Virus record (IMG/VR): IMGVR_UViG_3300006057_000006
Span: 1 to 21,081 of that record
Source of the DNA: a virus
DNA: 21,081 nt
Direction: 5' to 3' (one strand)
Shown: piece after piece, positions 11,974 to 20,851 of the stretch
Numbering within the stretch: the stretch's first letter is position 1
Layout: every line of letters starts with the position of its first letter
Program-made: the position numbers and the translations under genes
The notes under the pieces: model-generated
Told to the model about the DNA's origin: nothing
The model's input: the letters and a program-made list of their open reading frames with translations, nothing else
Database searches by the model: none

Positions 11974-12750
11974 CTAATTTAGTTCTAGCTGCAATTGAAT
12001 TGCTACACCAAATCGGTTTTGCATTAACCGCCAAAAGTCAACCTGAGTCGTTGACATTTTTAGCAGCGTTAAAACCTCCGAAATATGAGCTTTCAACACC
12101 CGTTCATCAACCTCAGCGTCAAAGTGCTGGTAGTGCAGATTTTCGCGGTGTGCAGTGCCTGCAACGTAAGGATTGACCTCGTTCAGTCGCTCGGTCACAC
12201 TGACGCCCAAAGACCCGTATACCGAACGCTTGATGAAGTTAGCCATCGGCATCCCTTGCCAGTGGTAGCCTGTTACGCGAGTTGCTTCTTTTTGCCAGTC
12301 TGGGCTGAAATGTTGGGGTCGTGTTTTGTCGGGAACCTCGCTGATGCGACTGGCTAAATAGCCTTGTCGCTGGGCTTGTTCAAACACAACGCCAAAACTG
12401 TCAGAGAAGATTTGGACTAGAGACAAGCCGATCAAAGCTCGGCTAATTGAGATTGCTTGGCTGTTGCCTAAGACCGTCAACTCAAACAACAATTTTTCAA
12501 GATCGATCAAGAATACGCAATTGATAAGCTGACGCTTACCTTCTATTCGCGCCTTGGATGCTTTAAAATCGTTACCCAGTAAGCGTCTTAAGTCTCTTGA
12601 TGCAGTATTGTTGGATGCACTAAAACTTATTAGTTGATTCAACTGAGGCACTGCTACGCCGTAGCGTCCATCTTCAAACAACAGTCCCTCAAACTCGATC
12701 GCCCCAAAGCGCATGATCGCAACTTTTGCAGTTAAAATGTCCGTAGCCAT
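11974..12750 (-). CDS. P63C-like regulatory protein, copy 2
   Basis: 258 residues. AGAGGA (12766-12761) 10 bases before the ATG is a good ribosome site. The N-terminal part (about 15-105) has an antirepressor-like layout: FEGLLFEDGRYGVAVPQLNQLI, SRDLRRLLGNDFKASK, and LINCVFLIDLEKLLFELTVLGN. The C-terminal ~120 residues (DKTRPQHFSPDWQ, RVTGYHWQGMPMANFIKRSVYG, RLNEVNPYVAG, RENLHYQHF, HISEVLTLLKMS, FWRLMQNRFGVAIQ) match the P63C pattern and are more than half identical to copy 3 at 16855-17658. The gene lies between tail chaperone and tape measure, opposite to them, with a bidirectional terminator at its end and a divergent region at its start. DNA-binding or antirepressor function is inferred. 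Confidence 0.65.
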   Translation of the reverse strand: MATDILTAKVAIMRFGAIEFEGLLFEDGRYGVAVPQLNQLISFSASNNTASRDLRRLLGNDFKASKARIEGKRQLINCVFLIDLEKLLFELTVLGNSQAISISRALIGLSLVQIFSDSFGVVFEQAQRQGYLASRISEVPDKTRPQHFSPDWQKEATRVTGYHWQGMPMANFIKRSVYGSLGVSVTERLNEVNPYVAGTAHRENLHYQHFDAEVDERVLKAHISEVLTLLKMSTTQVDFWRLMQNRFGVAIQLQLELN

Positions 12751-12859
12751 GATTCAGCTTTCCTCTGAGTTGTGGTTAGCCACCTTGTTCAAGGGGGGCG
12801 CGGGCGGTTAAGTGGGCTGTTAGTCGCAGCCCTGTCCCGTAAATTATTGTACACCCAAA
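12751..12859. promoter_or_regulatory. Divergent region between P63C-like copy 2 and the tape measure
   Basis: 109 bases. For the minus gene, TACAAT (12851-12846) is a good -10 box with a poor -35 (CTGAGT-like) inside the tape measure start. For the tape measure I see only weak candidates (TTGTTC at 12785-12790, 17 bases, TTAAGT at 12808-12813). GGGCTG (12814-12819) and CAGCCC (12827-12832) form a hairpin or dyad between them. Confidence 0.4.
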
Positions 12860-15800
12860 ATGGCCGATACTCAGGTAACAATCCTAATTACCGCGATCGA
12901 TGAAGCGTCCCAAGCATTCAAAAGCGTGCTTGACAATAGCGAATCGATGGCGAGCAAATTGTCAAAAACTGCCAACACCCTAGGCGAGTTAGGGGAAATA
13001 GCGACGGATTTTACCGAGCCGCTAGCCAAGGGATTAAAAGCCTCAAAATCTGCTGCGATCGACTTTGAATCGGGCATGGCAGAAGTGCGGAAGACCACCG
13101 GGTTAAGTGCCGCACAAACTGCCGAATTAGGCAATGAAATCAAGAAGCTGTCGAGGACAATTCCACTCACTACTGAGGAATTGACAAACATCGGTGTAGC
13201 AGCAGGACAGTCAGGAATAGCCATGAAGGATATTCCCAACTATGTAAAAGATATTTCTAAAGCTTCTGTTGCTCTTGCTGTCGATACAGACAAAGCAGGT
13301 TTGGCATTTGGTCGGCTGGCTAATATCTACGGAATGTCCACCAATGAAATACCCAAATTAGCAGCAGCAATCAATGTACTTGGAGACAGTTCAGTCGCAT
13401 CAGAAAAGGAAATTTTAAACGTAATTATGCGGACGGCCGCACTCAGCAAGCAAGCCAATTTGACCGCTAAAGATAGCGCTGCTTTGGGTGCTTCGTTTGT
13501 GAGTTTGGGCATGGCTCCCAGTGTCGCAGCAACCGCAATTAACGCACTTTTGAGTAGAATGACCACTGCCGAAATTCAATCAGCGAAATTCCAGCAAGGA
13601 CTTGCTATGATTGGGATGACGGGCAAAGAGTTGCAAAATATGACCTCTAAAGACGGCGCTCAGGCTATTTTCGCTCTAGGGGCTGCTGTTGACAAATTAG
13701 ACCCGCAAGAAAGAGCCAAAGCAATCGGCTTAATGTTTGGCGCGGAACACTCCGATAACGTGGGGATATTCTTGGATCGGATGGACGTATTTAAGCAGTC
13801 TCTCGGAAGCGTTGCCAATGACCAATCTAACGTAAATAGATACAATGAAGTATTTGCGACGCAACTCGACACAACAGCGTCAAAAATGCAAATCCTTAAT
13901 AATAGTTTTCAGGAATTAGCCATTGAAATAGGCACGGCATTGTTGCCTGCAATCAAAGCTTTTGCAGCATTTTTAACGCCAATTATCAACAAAGTAACTG
14001 AGTTTGCAGCCAAGCACCCCAACATCGTTCGACTGGGTTCTGCACTTGCTGGTTTGGCTATTTCTTTAGGGCCTCTGTTGTTTGGACTGTCGGCACTGGT
14101 AAAAGCTTGGAGTTTATTCAGCGCTGGCATCCCAATTGTTGCAGCACTAAGCAATAAATTCTTAGGTGTGGGCAATCCCATATCTAAGATGCTCAATTGG
14201 CTGGCAGGAACCAACCAAAGATTGCTGGGAATTGGCAAGGCTTCTGATGCAATTACCCCGCCGGATCTGATGGGCAAAATGGGTAAGTTACCCAAGATCG
14301 AGGAATGTTTGCCAGTTTGTATTTGCCCTAAGATTTGCGATGATTTTGAGGCAAAATTAAAGGCATTAGCAGCAAAGATTGAGTATTGTATTCCAATTTG
14401 TATTTGCCCTGAAATCTGTACGGAAGGCGGGAAATTGCCTGATATCAGCAAAAAACCGACTGCCGATACCAGTACGGGAGAACTGGCTAAAGCATTACCA
14501 AAACCAGAACCCGCACCAATAGCAGCAGCAACAGAGGTAAAAGCAGAACCGGAGAAAGTAGCAGAAAAAACAGCAGAGAAACAGGGGCTATCTTTACCAC
14601 AAATAGCCATGTTAGTTGCTGCATTGGGTGCAACTGTTCTGGCGGTACAAAAGCTCACTGATAGCAACGCTGGATTAGGCGAGAAAGTAGTCAGCGCTGC
14701 AACTGCAATCGGTGCGGGAACGGCTGCGAAAGAAATGTTAAAGACCAAAACACCGCAAGAAGAGGCGACAGAACTAGCAGATATCCAACAGCAAGCAGCG
14801 CAGCAGCTAGGAGCAACGCAGTTAGAAATAGCGAACAAATTATCAACAACTCAACTGGCTAACGCGCAAGAATTAGCCAAACAAACGCAGGCAAATCAGC
14901 TAGCAGAAATAGCCACAGCGGATAAGATTGCTGCGGGTAAATTGCTCGCACAACAAGCCTCAAATCAATTAGCAACCCAACAACTGCAAACCCAACTAGC
15001 AGCGCAAAAAGCGGCTGCTGCAATTGAAACTGAGAAAGCGCGATTGATTGCCCAGCAGCAAGTCGCCGCCACTGCAACCCAGTCGATGATGCAGGCCGCC
15101 ACCAAGTCTCACACCGCAGTAACTGATGTTGCAGGTGCTCAGCAAGTAGGAATGCAGCAGAATATTGCAGCCCAGCAAGTAGCCGCGACTCAGCTAAAAT
15201 CCGACGCCGATCGCAGGCAGGCGCAGGAACAAGCGGCCCAAAAAGCGGCGATGGCTGCTGAGGAAAAGAGGCAGGAAGCGGCAAAAATTGCTGCTGAGAG
15301 AAAAGCGGAAGACGATCGAAATTTTGTACCGGTTGAAGATTCCGAAGGGCCGACACGATCGGAAATGCGATCGCAACCCGCTCAAAAATCTGGTGGCGGT
15401 ATTGGCGGCTTTCTGAAAAATGCAGCTTTGCTTGGGGCTGGTGCTGTTGGATTGGGTGGTGTTGCTTATGCTGTTTCTAAAGTTGCAGGGGGTTTGGGCG
15501 GTGTTGTGGGCGGGTTGGTGAATGCAACTAAAGGTGTAGCTGGTGCTGTCAGCGGCGTAACAGGGGCAATTTCTAAAGGGAATGCTATAGCCAGAGGTGC
15601 GGGTGAGGTTGCGGGCGGGGCGATCGGTACAGGTGTTAGAGGAATCGGGGCCGCCAGTTCCGTAGCCAGAGGCGCGGGTGAGGTTGCAGGCAGTTCAATC
15701 GGCGGGGTAATCAAAAGCTACGGCGCGGTCATGGATGCAGCCAAAAATTCAGGCGCTGCCGTGGGACAGGCGATGGGTAGCGCTATAAAAGGTACTCAAT

Positions 15801-16795
15801 CACTGAGTCAGGCCGCCAGTTCAGCAGGTAGCGGTATCGCCGGGGCATTTGGCAAGGCAGGGGCATCGATGGCTGGCAGTGCGGCAAAAGTTGGGGAAGC
15901 TGCTACGGGTGCGGTAGCGAATACTGCCTCAGCTTGGAGCCAAGTGCAAAAAGCAGCATCCGTAACAGGGACTGCAATGAAAGGTGCTAGCGGGGCGATC
16001 GGTAGTGTGCTCGCACCTGCAAAGACCGGGACGGCTGGTTTGCTTTCGGGATTGGGCAACTCGGTATCGGGAATAGCCAGCGGGGCAAAAGGGGCAATTT
16101 CCAGCGCGGTTGATGTTGCGAGCAAGTTTGCAGCATCGCCTGCAAGTAAACTGATTTTACCTGTGGCTACCAGTGCCGCCGGGGCTGCGGGTGCTGCACA
16201 AATAGCTGGTAGCACAGAGCCGCCCGCAACTCCCATGCCCAAAAATGAGATTGCCAAATTCACCAGGGCAAGTACGGCACCAGAAATTACACCTGCATCG
16301 GAATTAGCCAGTCAGTCGGCTGCGGTAGCTCAAAATAATATTGTTCCTCTGGTTAGATCGAGCAGAGAAAGCGGTAAAGCGATTGCTGGGGAATTAGCCA
16401 AAGGGATAGAGGAAAGCAAGCCGCAGGCAGAGTTAGCAGCCGCTGGATTGGCTCAATCAGTAAGTAGTTACCTGCCAAGATCGCCCGCAGAGAAAGGGCC
16501 GCTTTCAGATTTAGACCAAACTGGTTTTGGACTGACTCAGGAATTTATCAAAGGCATTGATGGCAGTGCGATTCAAAATAAGTTTGAAGAGGTGATGAAT
16601 CCGCCGTCAAAATTTGCTGGCATGGATATGGGTGGCAGTGGTGGCAATAGTTCTAGCAATGCAGTGTATTCGCCTACTTACAATTTATCAGGCACACCAC
16701 CTGAGAATTTTATCGCTGAGCTAGAGAAACACGACCGCAAGTTTGTTGAATGGTTGCAGCAGACTCAGGAGCGGTTCAATCGGGGGAGGTATTAG
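12860..16795 (+). CDS. Tail tape measure protein
   Basis: 1311 residues, the longest gene. Residues about 70-370 match the TP901-type tape measure core (ESGMAEVRKTTGLS, LSRTIPLTTEELTNIGVAAGQSG, ASVALAVDTDKAGLAFGRLA, IYGMSTNEIPKLAAAINVLGD, NVIMRTAALSKQANLT, FVSLGMAPSVAATAINALLSRMT). Hydrophobic segments follow near 385-430. Residues 483-493 and 510-520 each read C-x-P-x-C-I-C-P-x-I-C, an unusual duplicated cysteine motif. About 600-840 is an A/Q-rich coiled coil, and 850-1130 a G/A-rich hydrophobic repeat region. The C-terminus ends in charged FIAELEKHDRKFVEWLQQTQERF. It sets tail length; at about 0.15 nm per residue, roughly 195 nm. It stands alone between two P63C-like cassettes. Confidence 0.85.
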   Translation: MADTQVTILITAIDEASQAFKSVLDNSESMASKLSKTANTLGELGEIATDFTEPLAKGLKASKSAAIDFESGMAEVRKTTGLSAAQTAELGNEIKKLSRTIPLTTEELTNIGVAAGQSGIAMKDIPNYVKDISKASVALAVDTDKAGLAFGRLANIYGMSTNEIPKLAAAINVLGDSSVASEKEILNVIMRTAALSKQANLTAKDSAALGASFVSLGMAPSVAATAINALLSRMTTAEIQSAKFQQGLAMIGMTGKELQNMTSKDGAQAIFALGAAVDKLDPQERAKAIGLMFGAEHSDNVGIFLDRMDVFKQSLGSVANDQSNVNRYNEVFATQLDTTASKMQILNNSFQELAIEIGTALLPAIKAFAAFLTPIINKVTEFAAKHPNIVRLGSALAGLAISLGPLLFGLSALVKAWSLFSAGIPIVAALSNKFLGVGNPISKMLNWLAGTNQRLLGIGKASDAITPPDLMGKMGKLPKIEECLPVCICPKICDDFEAKLKALAAKIEYCIPICICPEICTEGGKLPDISKKPTADTSTGELAKALPKPEPAPIAAATEVKAEPEKVAEKTAEKQGLSLPQIAMLVAALGATVLAVQKLTDSNAGLGEKVVSAATAIGAGTAAKEMLKTKTPQEEATELADIQQQAAQQLGATQLEIANKLSTTQLANAQELAKQTQANQLAEIATADKIAAGKLLAQQASNQLATQQLQTQLAAQKAAAAIETEKARLIAQQQVAATATQSMMQAATKSHTAVTDVAGAQQVGMQQNIAAQQVAATQLKSDADRRQAQEQAAQKAAMAAEEKRQEAAKIAAERKAEDDRNFVPVEDSEGPTRSEMRSQPAQKSGGGIGGFLKNAALLGAGAVGLGGVAYAVSKVAGGLGGVVGGLVNATKGVAGAVSGVTGAISKGNAIARGAGEVAGGAIGTGVRGIGAASSVARGAGEVAGSSIGGVIKSYGAVMDAAKNSGAAVGQAMGSAIKGTQSLSQAASSAGSGIAGAFGKAGASMAGSAAKVGEAATGAVANTASAWSQVQKAASVTGTAMKGASGAIGSVLAPAKTGTAGLLSGLGNSVSGIASGAKGAISSAVDVASKFAASPASKLILPVATSAAGAAGAAQIAGSTEPPATPMPKNEIAKFTRASTAPEITPASELASQSAAVAQNNIVPLVRSSRESGKAIAGELAKGIEESKPQAELAAAGLAQSVSSYLPRSPAEKGPLSDLDQTGFGLTQEFIKGIDGSAIQNKFEEVMNPPSKFAGMDMGGSGGNSSSNAVYSPTYNLSGTPPENFIAELEKHDRKFVEWLQQTQERFNRGRY
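15588..15691 (+). repeat. Direct repeat in the G/A-rich part of the tape measure
   Basis: 29-base units at 15588-15616 and 15663-15691 differ at two positions, period 75 bases (25 codons), both encoding ARGAGEVAG. This suggests recent unit duplication within the tape measure, a way for tail length to change. Confidence 0.65.
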
Positions 16796-16827: not shown

Positions 16828-16858
16828 AACAGTGGTGACAATTTGTCACTACTGTTAA
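16826..16858. repeat. 33-base near-perfect palindrome
   Basis: TTAACAGTGGTGACAA (16826-16841), T, TTGTCACTACTGTTAA (16843-16858); the one mismatch is a G-U pair in plus-strand RNA. It contains the stop codon of the convergent P63C-like gene and abuts the terminator stem. It may be a second hairpin in termination or a protein-binding dyad. Confidence 0.65.
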
Positions 16859-17658
16859 TTTAAATCGAGTTCAATTTGAATCGCTTCACCAAAGCGATTT
16901 TGCATCAACTGCCAAAACTGAAATTCAGAGAAAGACACTTTCAAAAGCGTTCCAATTTCGTCAATATGACGCTGCAACAAAGCTTCATCGATATCCGGTA
17001 CAAAGTGTTCGTAGTGGTAGTTTTCGCGGTGGCGTCCGTCAACAATTGGGTTGACTTGGTTGAGGCGATCGGTGCAAGGTTTGCCAAAGAAGTTATACAC
17101 GGAGCGGCGGATAAAATTAGCCATCGGGTAGCCTTGCCAGTTGTAGCCAGTCACCCGACAAGCATGAGTTTGCCAGTCTTTATTGAAGTGGATAGGACGG
17201 GTTTTATCGGCAGTTTCGCTGATGATGCGATCGATTGTGCTGCGAGCAATTTGGGATGATTGGTATTGCTCAGGTAGCCAGCCGGTCACAGCTTGGATGT
17301 AGCTGGTTAGACCGATAACCCCGGTAAGCTGATCTATTTCTTGCGCTTGCTCAGAACCAGAATAAGCGTAGTGCTTGATAACTGCTGAGCAAAAACTAGC
17401 GTTATAGACGATCGCACCTGCGCCACGCTTTCCAGTCTTGACAATTTCAGTAACCAATTTTAAATCTTTACCTACAAAGGATTGCAGCCATTTTGAAGGT
17501 GATTTGGTAATCAATTGTTTTTCAAGCTTCAGTATTGCTGGATTTGTTACTCCACAAGCCCGTGCTAGCCCGCGTTGGCTCATGCCTGATTCACCCGTGG
17601 CTACTAGCGTGTAGTATTCAACGCCGTCGCGGTTAACTCGCAAAATGTTATTATTCAT
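16855..17658 (-). CDS. P63C-like regulatory protein, copy 3
   Basis: 267 residues. Residues 26-46 (MSQRGLARACGVTNPAILKL) are a clear helix-turn-helix; about 48-140 is a middle region with IVYNASFCSAVIKHYAY and LTSYIQAVTGWLPEQYQ. The C-terminal ~120 residues (DKTRPIHFNKDWQ, RVTGYNWQGYPMANFIRRSVYN, RLNQVNPIVDG, RENYHYEHF, HIDEIGTLLKVS, FWQLMQNRFGEAIQ) match the P63C pattern and are close to copy 2, while the N-terminus is unrelated to copy 2. The gene is convergent with the tape measure and divergent from the tail operon, the same arrangement as copy 2 on the other side of the tape measure. Domain shuffling around a conserved C-terminal domain is typical of phage antirepressor families; the DNA-binding role is inferred from the HTH. 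Confidence 0.68.
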   Translation of the reverse strand: MNNNILRVNRDGVEYYTLVATGESGMSQRGLARACGVTNPAILKLEKQLITKSPSKWLQSFVGKDLKLVTEIVKTGKRGAGAIVYNASFCSAVIKHYAYSGSEQAQEIDQLTGVIGLTSYIQAVTGWLPEQYQSSQIARSTIDRIISETADKTRPIHFNKDWQTHACRVTGYNWQGYPMANFIRRSVYNFFGKPCTDRLNQVNPIVDGRHRENYHYEHFVPDIDEALLQRHIDEIGTLLKVSFSEFQFWQLMQNRFGEAIQIELDLN

Positions 17659-17728
17659 GTGTTGACCTGCTGATTAGGTTGACCGCGCCGCTGGATCGTA
17701 AGTCCGAGCGGCACTTTCTAATATTCTA
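17659..17728 (-). promoter_or_regulatory. Leader of P63C-like copy 3
   Basis: Read on the minus strand: a -10-like TAGAAT (17728-17723; no convincing -35), a hairpin formed by 17714-17704 with 17694-17685 (GCCGCT/AGCGGC core), then GGTCAACCTA (17684-17675), AGG (17668-17666), TCAAC and the ATG. The order and several words match the leader of the Rha-like gene (1441-1498). Confidence 0.45.
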
Positions 17729-17736
17729 GCACCCCC

Positions 17737-17765
17737 CTGACAAACCCGGCTACCCCTGCTAGTAT
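17737..17765 (+). promoter_or_regulatory. Promoter pointing into the CRISPR-like repeats and tail operon
   Basis: CTGACA (17737-17742), exactly 17 bases, TAGTAT (17760-17765). Transcription would begin near 17773, about 8 bases before the first CRISPR-like repeat, leaving a 180-base leader before the gpU-like ATG. It is divergent from P63C-like copy 3. Confidence 0.45.
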
Positions 17766-17780
17766 CAATTCAAGCGCTGG

Positions 17781-17871
17781 TTAAACCCCTATCAGGGATT
17801 GAAACGAACTCTAAAGCTGTGCTTTGAATTCTATTTATTCTTTAAAATAAATTCCTATTAGGGATTGAAAC
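17781..17871 (+). CRISPR. Two CRISPR-repeat-like units in the tail operon leader
   Basis: CCTATCAGGGATTGAAAC ends at 17805 and CCTATTAGGGATTGAAAC ends at 17871; over 25 bases (17781-17805, 17847-17871) 21 positions agree, period 66 bases. The ATTGAAAC end and the CCT...AGG stem are typical of cyanobacterial CRISPR repeats and of the 8-nt crRNA handle. Similarity fades 5' of these 25 bases, shorter than a usual 36-37-base repeat, and there are only two units. The segment between them contains a hairpin, AAAGC-TGT-GCTTT (17813-17825). No cas gene is in the window. Could be a mini-array, a repeat mimic, or a decayed array. Confidence 0.5.
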
Positions 17872-17889
17872 AAATAAAAACTACAACTT

Positions 17890-17915
17890 AAAACCCCTTC
17901 ATTGACAGGGGCTTT
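17890..17915 (+). terminator. Weak terminator-like hairpin after the CRISPR-like units
   Basis: CCCCT (17894-17898), 8-base loop, AGGGG (17907-17911), extended by three A-T pairs beyond a mismatch; CTTTATCC follows. It could end a short RNA of about 140 nt starting near 17773, or attenuate the tail operon. On the minus strand the stem is followed by TTTTAAG. Confidence 0.4.
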
Positions 17916-17952
17916 ATCCTATGCGAGCATAAAACCACTCTCACATTTGACT

Positions 17953-18414
17953 ATGTTCGGAAGCTTTGGCTCAATCCCTATCAAGAAAGCCACGATGCTC
18001 AATAGATCGCGGTTTTTCCCTGTGGCTGAGGCTGATGTTGCTTTGGGCCTGCCTTCGCTACAAGTGGTAAGTCGAAAATTGGAAGATATCGAATTAGCAC
18101 TGAGTTTTTTTGGCGCAAGCACTGCCGATGATGTTGTGGCGTGGCAGAGAGTAGCCAGTAGCAGGGAGCCTGCTGTGTTCGTAATTGGGGGCAAACCACA
18201 GGGCAGATGGATTGTCACGGCGCTGACAGAAGAGATTAATCATGCAATCGGCGATCGCATAGTTGCCCAAAGGTTGCGTGTCACCTTCAAGGAAGAGGGC
18301 GCATTTTTGTGGGCGGGGAATTACAGCCCTTACGAGCCTCCACCTGTTGCGCGTCGGCAGGCTGAGCAAGGTCTGGGTGGTTTACTAGATGGATTAAAGG
18401 GATGGTTGGGATGA
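17953..18414 (+). CDS. gpU-like tail protein
   Basis: I chose the ATG at 17953 (153 residues); an upstream TTG lies within the leader hairpin. Sequence order follows P2 gpU: a short N-terminal strand (MFGSFGSIPI), RSRFFPVAEADVALGLPSLQVVSRKLEDIELALSF (in P2: W-x-x-x-x-R-V-G-R-x-P-x-x-Q-F-L...I-x-L-x-G), a helix-turn near DDVVAWQRVA, then PAVFVIGGKPQGRWIVTALTEEINH (P2: P-x-I-E-G-x-G-x-x-Y-G-x-Y-V-V-E-x-I), and RLRVTFKEEGAF, the closing strand. gpU completes the tail end at the neck. It is coupled to the next gene by ATGA. Confidence 0.72.
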   Translation: MFGSFGSIPIKKATMLNRSRFFPVAEADVALGLPSLQVVSRKLEDIELALSFFGASTADDVVAWQRVASSREPAVFVIGGKPQGRWIVTALTEEINHAIGDRIVAQRLRVTFKEEGAFLWAGNYSPYEPPPVARRQAEQGLGGLLDGLKGWLG

Positions 18415-19753: not shown

Positions 19754-20851
19754 ATGTTAAAGCCATCCCTTCGTATATTTCTAGAGCAAGCTGATATCAG
19801 CGCAGACATACTGCCTGATATCATTGATTGCGAGTACAACAACGAGGGAGATAACGCATCGACTTTGAGGCTAATTGTGCGCTCATCACCACGGTTATTT
19901 AACAGCGATTGGATGCCCCGCCCGTTTCAATACATTAAGTGTCAGTTCTATTATAAAGGTAATTCAAATGTTTTGAATGCAGGTAACTTTCAAGTTGAGT
20001 CAGTCCGTGAAAAAGTAGGAAATAGCTACGATGTAATTGAAATTACAGCTATCTCTGTTCCCATAAAAGGGCGGATTTATGAACGCAAAAATTTAAGTTT
20101 TAACGGCGTACTGTTAGAAACAATCCTTAGAGACAAAGCGATTGGATTGCAGTTAAATCCTAAAATACAAATACCAGAGTTGTTTGTAAATGTCAAACAA
20201 CAAGAACAATCAGACCTTGAATTCTTACGAATGATTGCGGGTAGTTGGGGCTTCAATTTCACAATTGACAACGGCACTTTAGTAATGGCAGGTGATGCGT
20301 ATTTCCGCACCATTCCACCAATACTTACCATGTCTCGCAGCGAGTACAGATCGCTTGACATCGAGCATTCTGGCTACAACACCTACGCTGATTGTGAAGT
20401 GAGTTACACTTGGCTAGGGGAGGACAAAAGCCTCACGGTGAAAGATTGGGCGGTATTTACTGACAATTTAGTATCGCTACGATCAAGCCGTAGATTAAGG
20501 CACGAGATGAAGTTTCCGGTAGTGTCGCCGTACCACGCAGCCTATGCGGGAGTAGAGCAATTAATTAAGAAAAATAACGGACAAATCCAAGGCACAATGG
20601 AGGCAATCGGACGCCCTGAATTAGTCGCATTTAATAATATTCAGCTATTAGGCAATCGATTTAACGGCAAGTATCAAATCTTGAAGGCTACCCATCGATT
20701 TAATAGTGATGGCTGGAAATGTAGCTGCAATCTGAAGTGGATACCTGTGAGGGCGGGTGATGTGCAATTTACGTGGTACGATCTATTGGAGATAGCCAGA
20801 GGCTCAATTGGAGGCTTTGGCATTGATATTCCTGGTATCCCCGGTATTTGA
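19754..20851 (+). CDS. Phage late control D-like tail hub protein (gpD)
   Basis: 365 residues. N-terminal hub barrel: PSLRIFLEQADISADILPDIIDCEYNNEGD followed by a strand with STLRLIVRSSP, then PRPFQYIKCQFYY, GNFQVESVREKVGNSYDVIEITAISV and the family signature of a cleft-linked middle region with ETILRDKAIGLQL. SDLEFLRMIAGSWGFNFTIDNGTLVMAGD is the best-conserved stretch (P2-like: D-x-x-F-L-x-x-x-A-x-x-x-G...). The C-terminal part is YHAAYAGVEQLIKKNNGQIQGTMEAIGRP, LLGNRFNGKYQILKATHRFN. The trimer forms the baseplate hub below the tube. It ends one base before the exoribonuclease gene. Confidence 0.8.
   Translation: MLKPSLRIFLEQADISADILPDIIDCEYNNEGDNASTLRLIVRSSPRLFNSDWMPRPFQYIKCQFYYKGNSNVLNAGNFQVESVREKVGNSYDVIEITAISVPIKGRIYERKNLSFNGVLLETILRDKAIGLQLNPKIQIPELFVNVKQQEQSDLEFLRMIAGSWGFNFTIDNGTLVMAGDAYFRTIPPILTMSRSEYRSLDIEHSGYNTYADCEVSYTWLGEDKSLTVKDWAVFTDNLVSLRSSRRLRHEMKFPVVSPYHAAYAGVEQLIKKNNGQIQGTMEAIGRPELVAFNNIQLLGNRFNGKYQILKATHRFNSDGWKCSCNLKWIPVRAGDVQFTWYDLLEIARGSIGGFGIDIPGIPGI

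Follow-up and report, generated by a model that had tools for sequence, protein, structure and literature searches.

The window, by which we mean the whole stretch of DNA that was analysed, is a virus record of 21,081 bp that carries a contractile-tail phage module. The proteins of this module were identified with Pfam as capsid E-like, sheath, tape measure, gpU-like, and tail-X-like, with several of the matches falling below the cut-off. Between the end of the tape measure gene at 16795 and the ATG of the gpU gene at 17953 lies an inserted-looking block, which is made up of a divergent gene on the minus strand (16855-17658) and an element on the plus strand (17737-17915) that is the subject of this report. 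The same element was found at the same place in two related virus records, IMGVR 2830716703_000001 and 3300012346_000677, whose gpU proteins are 94% and 92% identical to that of the window. The gene downstream of the element (17953-18414, plus strand) encodes a P2 gpU-like tail protein (PF06995, E=4.2e-06, just under the curated cut-off). The divergent gene has an HTH-like N-terminus by eye, and its product shares 43% identity with that of a second gene at 11974-12750, which has a weak match to a P63C domain; both genes are on the minus strand, opposing the direction of the tail operon, and it is possible that both encode phage regulators. In the interval between the divergent gene and the putative promoter of the element, inspection of the sequence and of the three-phage alignment revealed a dyad, GCCGCT-N14-AGCGGC (17687-17712), whose arms are conserved and whose middle is variable, and which might serve as an operator for both the divergent gene and the small-RNA promoter. 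Searches of phage records with the gpU protein, the divergent protein, and the DNA gave no match, and no gpU relatives were found in the genome contigs (searched with two peptide patterns only) or in 391 genomes of the order. A search of Rfam likewise gave no match. No cas genes were found among the eight window proteins that were scanned, both flanking genes included, and the element is surrounded by phage tail genes without an adjoining cas operon.

The most prominent feature of the element is a pair of repeat units (17781-17805 and 17847-17871) that agree at 21 of 25 positions and share the terminal sequence AGGGATTGAAAC; a repeat search of the window reported them as 27 nt at 85% identity with a spacing of 66. 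With as many as 3 mismatches allowed, the 19-nt pattern CCCTATYAGGGATTGAAAC is confined to these two sites in the window and was not matched in any of 100 dinucleotide shuffles. Within the first unit, the half-repeat that we term R1 (TAAACCCCTATCAGGGATTGAAAC, 17782-17805, plus strand) contains a Cas6-type hairpin, CCCT-ATC-AGGG (17787-17797), followed by an 8-nt handle, ATTGAAAC (17798-17805). The second half-repeat, R2 (TAAATTCCTATTAGGGATTGAAAC, 17848-17871, plus strand), has the hairpin TCCT-ATT-AGGG and the same handle, and it is predicted to fold into a 7-bp hairpin both in the window and in a relative. With only 4 bp, the hairpin of R1 is short, and the isolated window unit prefers a different fold, which speaks against the decoy reading favored below, although the hairpin of the host repeat is equally weak. 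Folding of the whole RNA gave a z of -1.67, which is not decisive, and the model also shows base pairing between the two palindromic units. A third, inverted unit at 17965-17987 was considered and rejected as a chance occurrence, as it is weak, falls within the gpU coding sequence, and has not been retained by the relatives.

The repeat pair is preceded by a sigma-70-type promoter, CTGACA-N17-TAGTAT (17737-17765, plus strand), which is the sole promoter-like match in 17650-18000 and from which transcription is inferred, without expression data, to start at about 17771-17773. On its own such a match is near chance (0.7 expected), and we give it weight because it is conserved: across the three phages the boxes vary in 2 of 12 columns and the N17 in 9 of 17, and one relative has the stronger TTGACA-N17-TAATAT. 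The 5' segment of the predicted RNA (the AATTCAAGCGCTGGTTAAAC region, 17766-17785, plus strand) is also conserved, with a single variable column in 20. After R2 there is a terminator-like hairpin, CCCCTTCATTGACAGGGG (17894-17911, plus strand), that has a weak T run and is invariant in the three phages. A reading made from the sequence alone had previously described the two units, the promoter-like site, and the hairpin, and sequence checks confirmed their positions, as well as the likeness, spacing, and shared end of the units. That reading had also placed the element in a tail-operon leader, whereas the position of the terminator-like hairpin ahead of gpU suggests a separate small-RNA unit instead. 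Its further proposals of coupling to tail-operon expression and of control through the divergent regulator are conjectural.

A comparison of 20 kb of the window with the 391 genomes of the order gave matches in 84 of them. Most of the listed matches fell at window positions ~17782-17877 (query 16683-16778) and were CRISPR-array-like, and many recurred at steps of ~72 nt within one contig, as is the case in CRISPR arrays. The genomes used here are a sample of a larger set and may miss the lysogen, and the E-values are per genome. R1 is identical at 24/24 positions to the 3' part of the repeats in Microcoleus arrays, with 60, 45, and 5 copies in L032, L030, and L033, respectively, and R2 matches Microcoleus repeats at 21/24. 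The likeness is limited to the 3' 24 nt of the 37-nt host repeat, as the first 12 nt match at only 1-4 of 12 positions. The parts that have been kept are the Cas6 hairpin, the 8-nt handle, and five bases upstream, which is what would be expected of an RNA-level substrate for Cas6 rather than of an array that acquires spacers. The identity to CRISPR repeats, handle included, together with the finding that, of the whole window, it is chiefly the repeat pair that matches cyanobacterial genomes, all but excludes the explanation that the units are paired operators or an attenuator acting on the tail genes or on the divergent regulator, for which the location between the divergent gene and gpU and the nearby dyad at 17687-17712 could otherwise be cited.

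The pattern of conservation among the three phages indicates that the repeats have been maintained. In R1 the differences are confined to the loop, where two bases have changed (ATC to TTT), while R2 has one change from C-G to U-G, by which the pair is kept, and one change in the handle, giving ATTGAAGC in L026; the Cas6-type stems are intact in all three. Only 4 of 40 columns are variable in the repeats, compared with 58 of 152 (38%) at the third codon positions of gpU (p=0.0003) and 65 of 260 in the remaining intergenic region (p=0.02). These column tests assume independence, rest on three sequences only, and concern features that were picked after the alignment had been viewed. It could be argued that the element is a functionless, decayed remnant of a captured CRISPR array, given that R1 and R2 are identical neither to each other nor to full repeats and that no target was found. 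We consider this very unlikely because the loss affects only the 5' third, with R1 matching perfectly throughout its last 24 nt, because the element is conserved in three phages despite 38% variable synonymous sites, and because the promoter and the terminator-like hairpin have been retained. The sequence-only reading, which had itself allowed for a decayed array, named three refuting conditions, one of them being that no RNA is made from this strand. The other two, the absence of a cyanobacterial repeat matching beyond chance and a lack of conservation in related phages, were not borne out: the match to Microcoleus arrays is far beyond chance, and the element is present in two relatives. Its central suggestion of recognition by Cas6, with a role as decoy or guide, is thereby supported from repeat identity and conservation, with processing by Cas6 being inferred. 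Taken this way, the element is likely to be a conserved mimic of a Cas6 substrate rather than the product of simple decay.

CRISPR loci of the same genus point to type I-D as the matching subtype. Microcoleus sp. FACHB-61 encodes a type I-D effector set (cas3', cas10d, csc2, csc1, and cas6) and has 43 repeats, mostly GCCGGAAAAAACCTAAAACCCTATCAGGGATTGAAAC. A second genome, G215, which belongs to the same genus as M. vaginatus HSN003, has a complete type I-D locus (cas3', cas10d, csc2, csc1, cas6, cas4, and cas1), after which comes an array of 66 repeats, mostly GCCGCAATCAAACTAAACCCCTACTAGGGATTGAAAC. R1 agrees with the 3' 24 nt of this repeat at 22 positions, and both differences are loop bases. 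A spacer at the far end of this array matches the window at 32/33 nt (20787-20819), and the protospacer is preceded by GTA, which fits the GTN PAM reported for type I-D (PMC10212523). Over its full 42 nt this spacer has 6 mismatches to the phage, 4 of them within the first 8 nt, suggesting that it was probably acquired from a relative and may no longer lead to cutting of the window phage. Another genome of the genus, G262, holds a 43-nt spacer in an array with a different repeat type, GTTTCCATTCAATTAGTTTCCCCAGCGAGTGGGGA (L189 1501-1543, G262:C165), that matches 12858-12900, the start of the tape-measure gene, at 41/43. Based on these spacers and repeats, we infer that the phage likely infects a Microcoleus. 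The type I-D locus with a near-identical repeat and an anti-phage spacer was found in G215, which is not a demonstrated host. Cas10d was found in 12 of 30 genomes of the genus. The HSN003 genome has arrays but no Cas10d, so part of the matching arrays could belong to a different system, such as type III.

Sequence identity to host repeats, modular retention of their parts, conservation, and a matching type I-D locus with an anti-phage spacer have thus been shown. With a probability of roughly 0.6, we favor the interpretation that the element is a decoy RNA, that is, an RNA anti-CRISPR (Racr-like) directed against type I-D; its transcription, its processing by Cas6, and the resulting inhibition are all inferred. 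Under this model, 17737-17915 would be an independent gene for a small RNA in a Microcoleus phage, and its transcript of ~145 nt would contain the Cas6 recognition hairpin and the crRNA 5' handle of the host type I-D repeat in two copies each. Cas6d of type I-D systems cuts after the stem-loop and leaves an 8-nt 5' handle (PMC10212523), and the host enzyme would be expected to bind, and probably cleave, both units at ~17797/17798 and ~17863/17864. Cleavage would yield a 66-nt crRNA-like RNA consisting of the AUUGAAAC handle, a non-targeting spacer, and a hairpin, as well as a handle-bearing 3' piece that ends in the terminator-like hairpin. These products may tie up Cas6d and the Cascade subunits Csc2, Csc1, and Cas10d in non-productive complexes and so lower type I-D interference. 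With two units and both handles, the crRNA-like product might also recruit Csc1 and Cas10d, acting as a non-targeting crRNA and not as a handle-less filament. The decoy reading accounts for the kept hairpin and handle, the lost 5' third, the target-less spacer, and the element's own promoter, and also for its presence in a virus against which the likely hosts carry spacers.

Repeat mimics carried by phages, mini-arrays, and creA have all been described before, and what sets the present element apart is the paired 3' half-repeat arrangement and its relation to type I-D. RacrIF1 is bound and cut by Cas6f in a stem-dependent manner and supports an aberrant Cas6-Cas7 complex; it acts via the upstream product, and its handle is dispensable (PMC10651486). 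The Racrs that have been tested require the Cas6 stem-loop, and solitary repeats are often found behind their own promoter (PMC10651486). Like them, our element mimics a CRISPR repeat, is carried by a phage, lacks associated cas genes, has a promoter of its own and an intact Cas6 stem, and appears, as far as the host can be inferred, to match the CRISPR subtype of that host; it also meets the criterion for solitary repeat units of a promoter within 250 bp upstream. It differs in that it consists of two half-repeats 66 nt apart that keep both handles, whereas a Racr is one full repeat, and the criterion that no second repeat occur within 100 bp is not met. The presence of two repeats with both handles, when the handle of RacrIF1 is dispensable (PMC10651486), counts against the decoy reading. 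The Racr study searched IMG/VR and plasmids and performed its tests in types I-C, I-E, I-F, and V-A (PMC10651486); in the sections of it that bear on this question there is no tested Racr for type I-D, the type of our element. As SRUFinder removes any candidate that has another partial match no more than 100 bp away (PMC10651486), the paired arrangement appears to lie outside the published screen, and it remains possible that the element is nonetheless contained in the supplementary lists of that study, which we could not exclude. AcrID1 of SIRV3 is the sole type I-D anti-CRISPR in a 2023 review (PMC10212523); it shares with our element the presumed block of type I-D, but it is a protein that binds Cas10d, whereas the element would act as an RNA.

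The spacer-like segment between the half-repeats (17806-17847, plus strand) has its first 19 nt conserved and the remainder diverged in the three phages, with 2 of 19 variable columns in the former and 14 of 28 in the columns that follow (p=0.005). This conserved 5' part is not explained by a pure decoy. One alternative, raised in the sequence-only reading, is that the element is a mini-array whose spacer directs the host type I-D Cascade at a rival virus. Phage mini-arrays in such a role are known (PMC11656645), Nostoc phage N-1 has a transcribed array with repeats of this family (PMC4916379), and the spacing of 66 is close to the ~71 of host arrays. Against this, no protospacer was found in phage or plasmid records, and the 17 unrelated viral contigs that contain the 16-nt start of the spacer do not extend the match. 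The 3' part of the spacer also drifts between relatives, and the repeats of known mini-arrays are identical to those of the host (PMC11656645), whereas here the 5' third of the repeat has been lost; this alternative is therefore very unlikely. The array of N-1 and similar cyanophage mini-arrays (PMC4916379; YongM, MaMV-CH01) are likewise DR5 / type I-D, without cas genes and with an upstream promoter, but they have full, near-identical 37-nt repeats, while our element has the 3' 24 nt only.

A second alternative is a CreA-like guide, in which the half-repeats would yield a crRNA-like RNA with two handles whose seed sends the host Cascade to a partly complementary promoter of the host or phage, repressing it. 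As in creA, there are two degenerate repeats around a spacer, the needs of Cas6 are retained, and the element has its own promoter and terminator (PMC8501985, PMC9458426). The conservation of the first 19 spacer nt (p=0.005) would fit this model, as would the mutated R2 handle in L026, since the psiR2 of creA degenerates at the handle. The differences are that our element is in a phage and not beside cas genes, that no toxin or target site was found, and that R1 is better kept; R1 is nearer to the host repeat than R2, the opposite of creA. No toxin RNA was recognised and there is no neighboring cas operon, nor was the spacer seed found to pair with the promoter of a nearby toxin next to a PAM, as that of creA does. 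An 8-nt seed from the spacer start had no second site of at least 8 nt, either in the window or in those portions of the related records that were retrieved. The PAM-anchored seed GTNGAACTCTAAA was not enriched in 30 Microcoleus genomes, where it had fewer sites than the control pattern, mostly at one orthologous locus. With the spacer searched against the 391 genomes at 2 mismatches, counts were similar to those of the reversed control by inspection. We consider the guide model unlikely, and less likely than the decoy RNA to be correct, although the conserved spacer start means that it is still possible. A bolder version, in which the conserved 19-nt 5' segment directs the host type I-D Cascade, through partial complementarity, to a specific gene that is then repressed, is also doubtful; if true, a virus would be reprogramming an immune complex into a transcription repressor, which goes beyond titration.

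If the decoy reading is correct, RNA anti-CRISPRs would extend to the type I-D systems of filamentous cyanobacteria, for which the only inhibitor in the 2023 review is a protein from an archaeal virus (PMC10212523). Because published search rules appear to remove paired 3' half-repeats, such elements may be undercounted. With the first third of the repeat missing and the Cas6 part perfect, the element separates the needs of Cas6 from those of spacer acquisition, and the conserved start of the spacer provides a direct handle on the question of decoy versus guide.

Other repeats came to light during these searches. The hairpin-plus-handle pattern was present in 110 stretches of viral contigs, compared with 13 for a scrambled handle. 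In five of the records (L004, L005, L011, L022, and L023) a hairpin-plus-handle pair is spaced 45 nt apart, which is not an array arrangement, and several of these have a third unit ~3.2 kb off. A single repeat unit, CAACAGCTAACTTAATCCCTACTAGGGATTGAAAC, with conserved flanks occurs in many viral contigs (L046, L047, L059, L061, L063, L084, and L114), and another single unit recurs in L043, L055, L065, and L099. Promoters ahead of other viral single repeats were not consistently above control and were therefore not counted as support. Arrays of 12-20 repeats were observed in contigs classed as viral (L009, L077, L112, L045, and others), which may be phage-borne or host DNA. A 17-kb plasmid of Microcystis NIES-298 (NZ_CP046059, L035 2890-3090) has at least four imperfect repeats of the element's repeat family and an integrase gene, with no annotated cas gene in the stretch shown. 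The Microcystis phage MaMV-CH01 (PP681321, L138 1430-1595) has two full 37-nt repeats around one 39-nt spacer; the same array is found in MaMV-DL01 (L139), and CH02 and DL02 also match. The spacer of MaMV-CH01 is the reverse complement of its own array promoter at 35/39 positions, with the 4 mismatches clustered in a palindrome near the spacer start and GTT, a type I-D PAM, adjoining the protospacer, so that the crRNA could possibly bind and repress its own promoter. Self-targeting of this kind was also considered for the element in the window and rejected, as the match of the spacer to its own promoter was no better than that of a shuffled spacer. Lastly, Nostoc phage YongM (MT426122, L140, ~62750-62872) carries a two-repeat array near its baseplate genes, with an 11/12 promoter match upstream.
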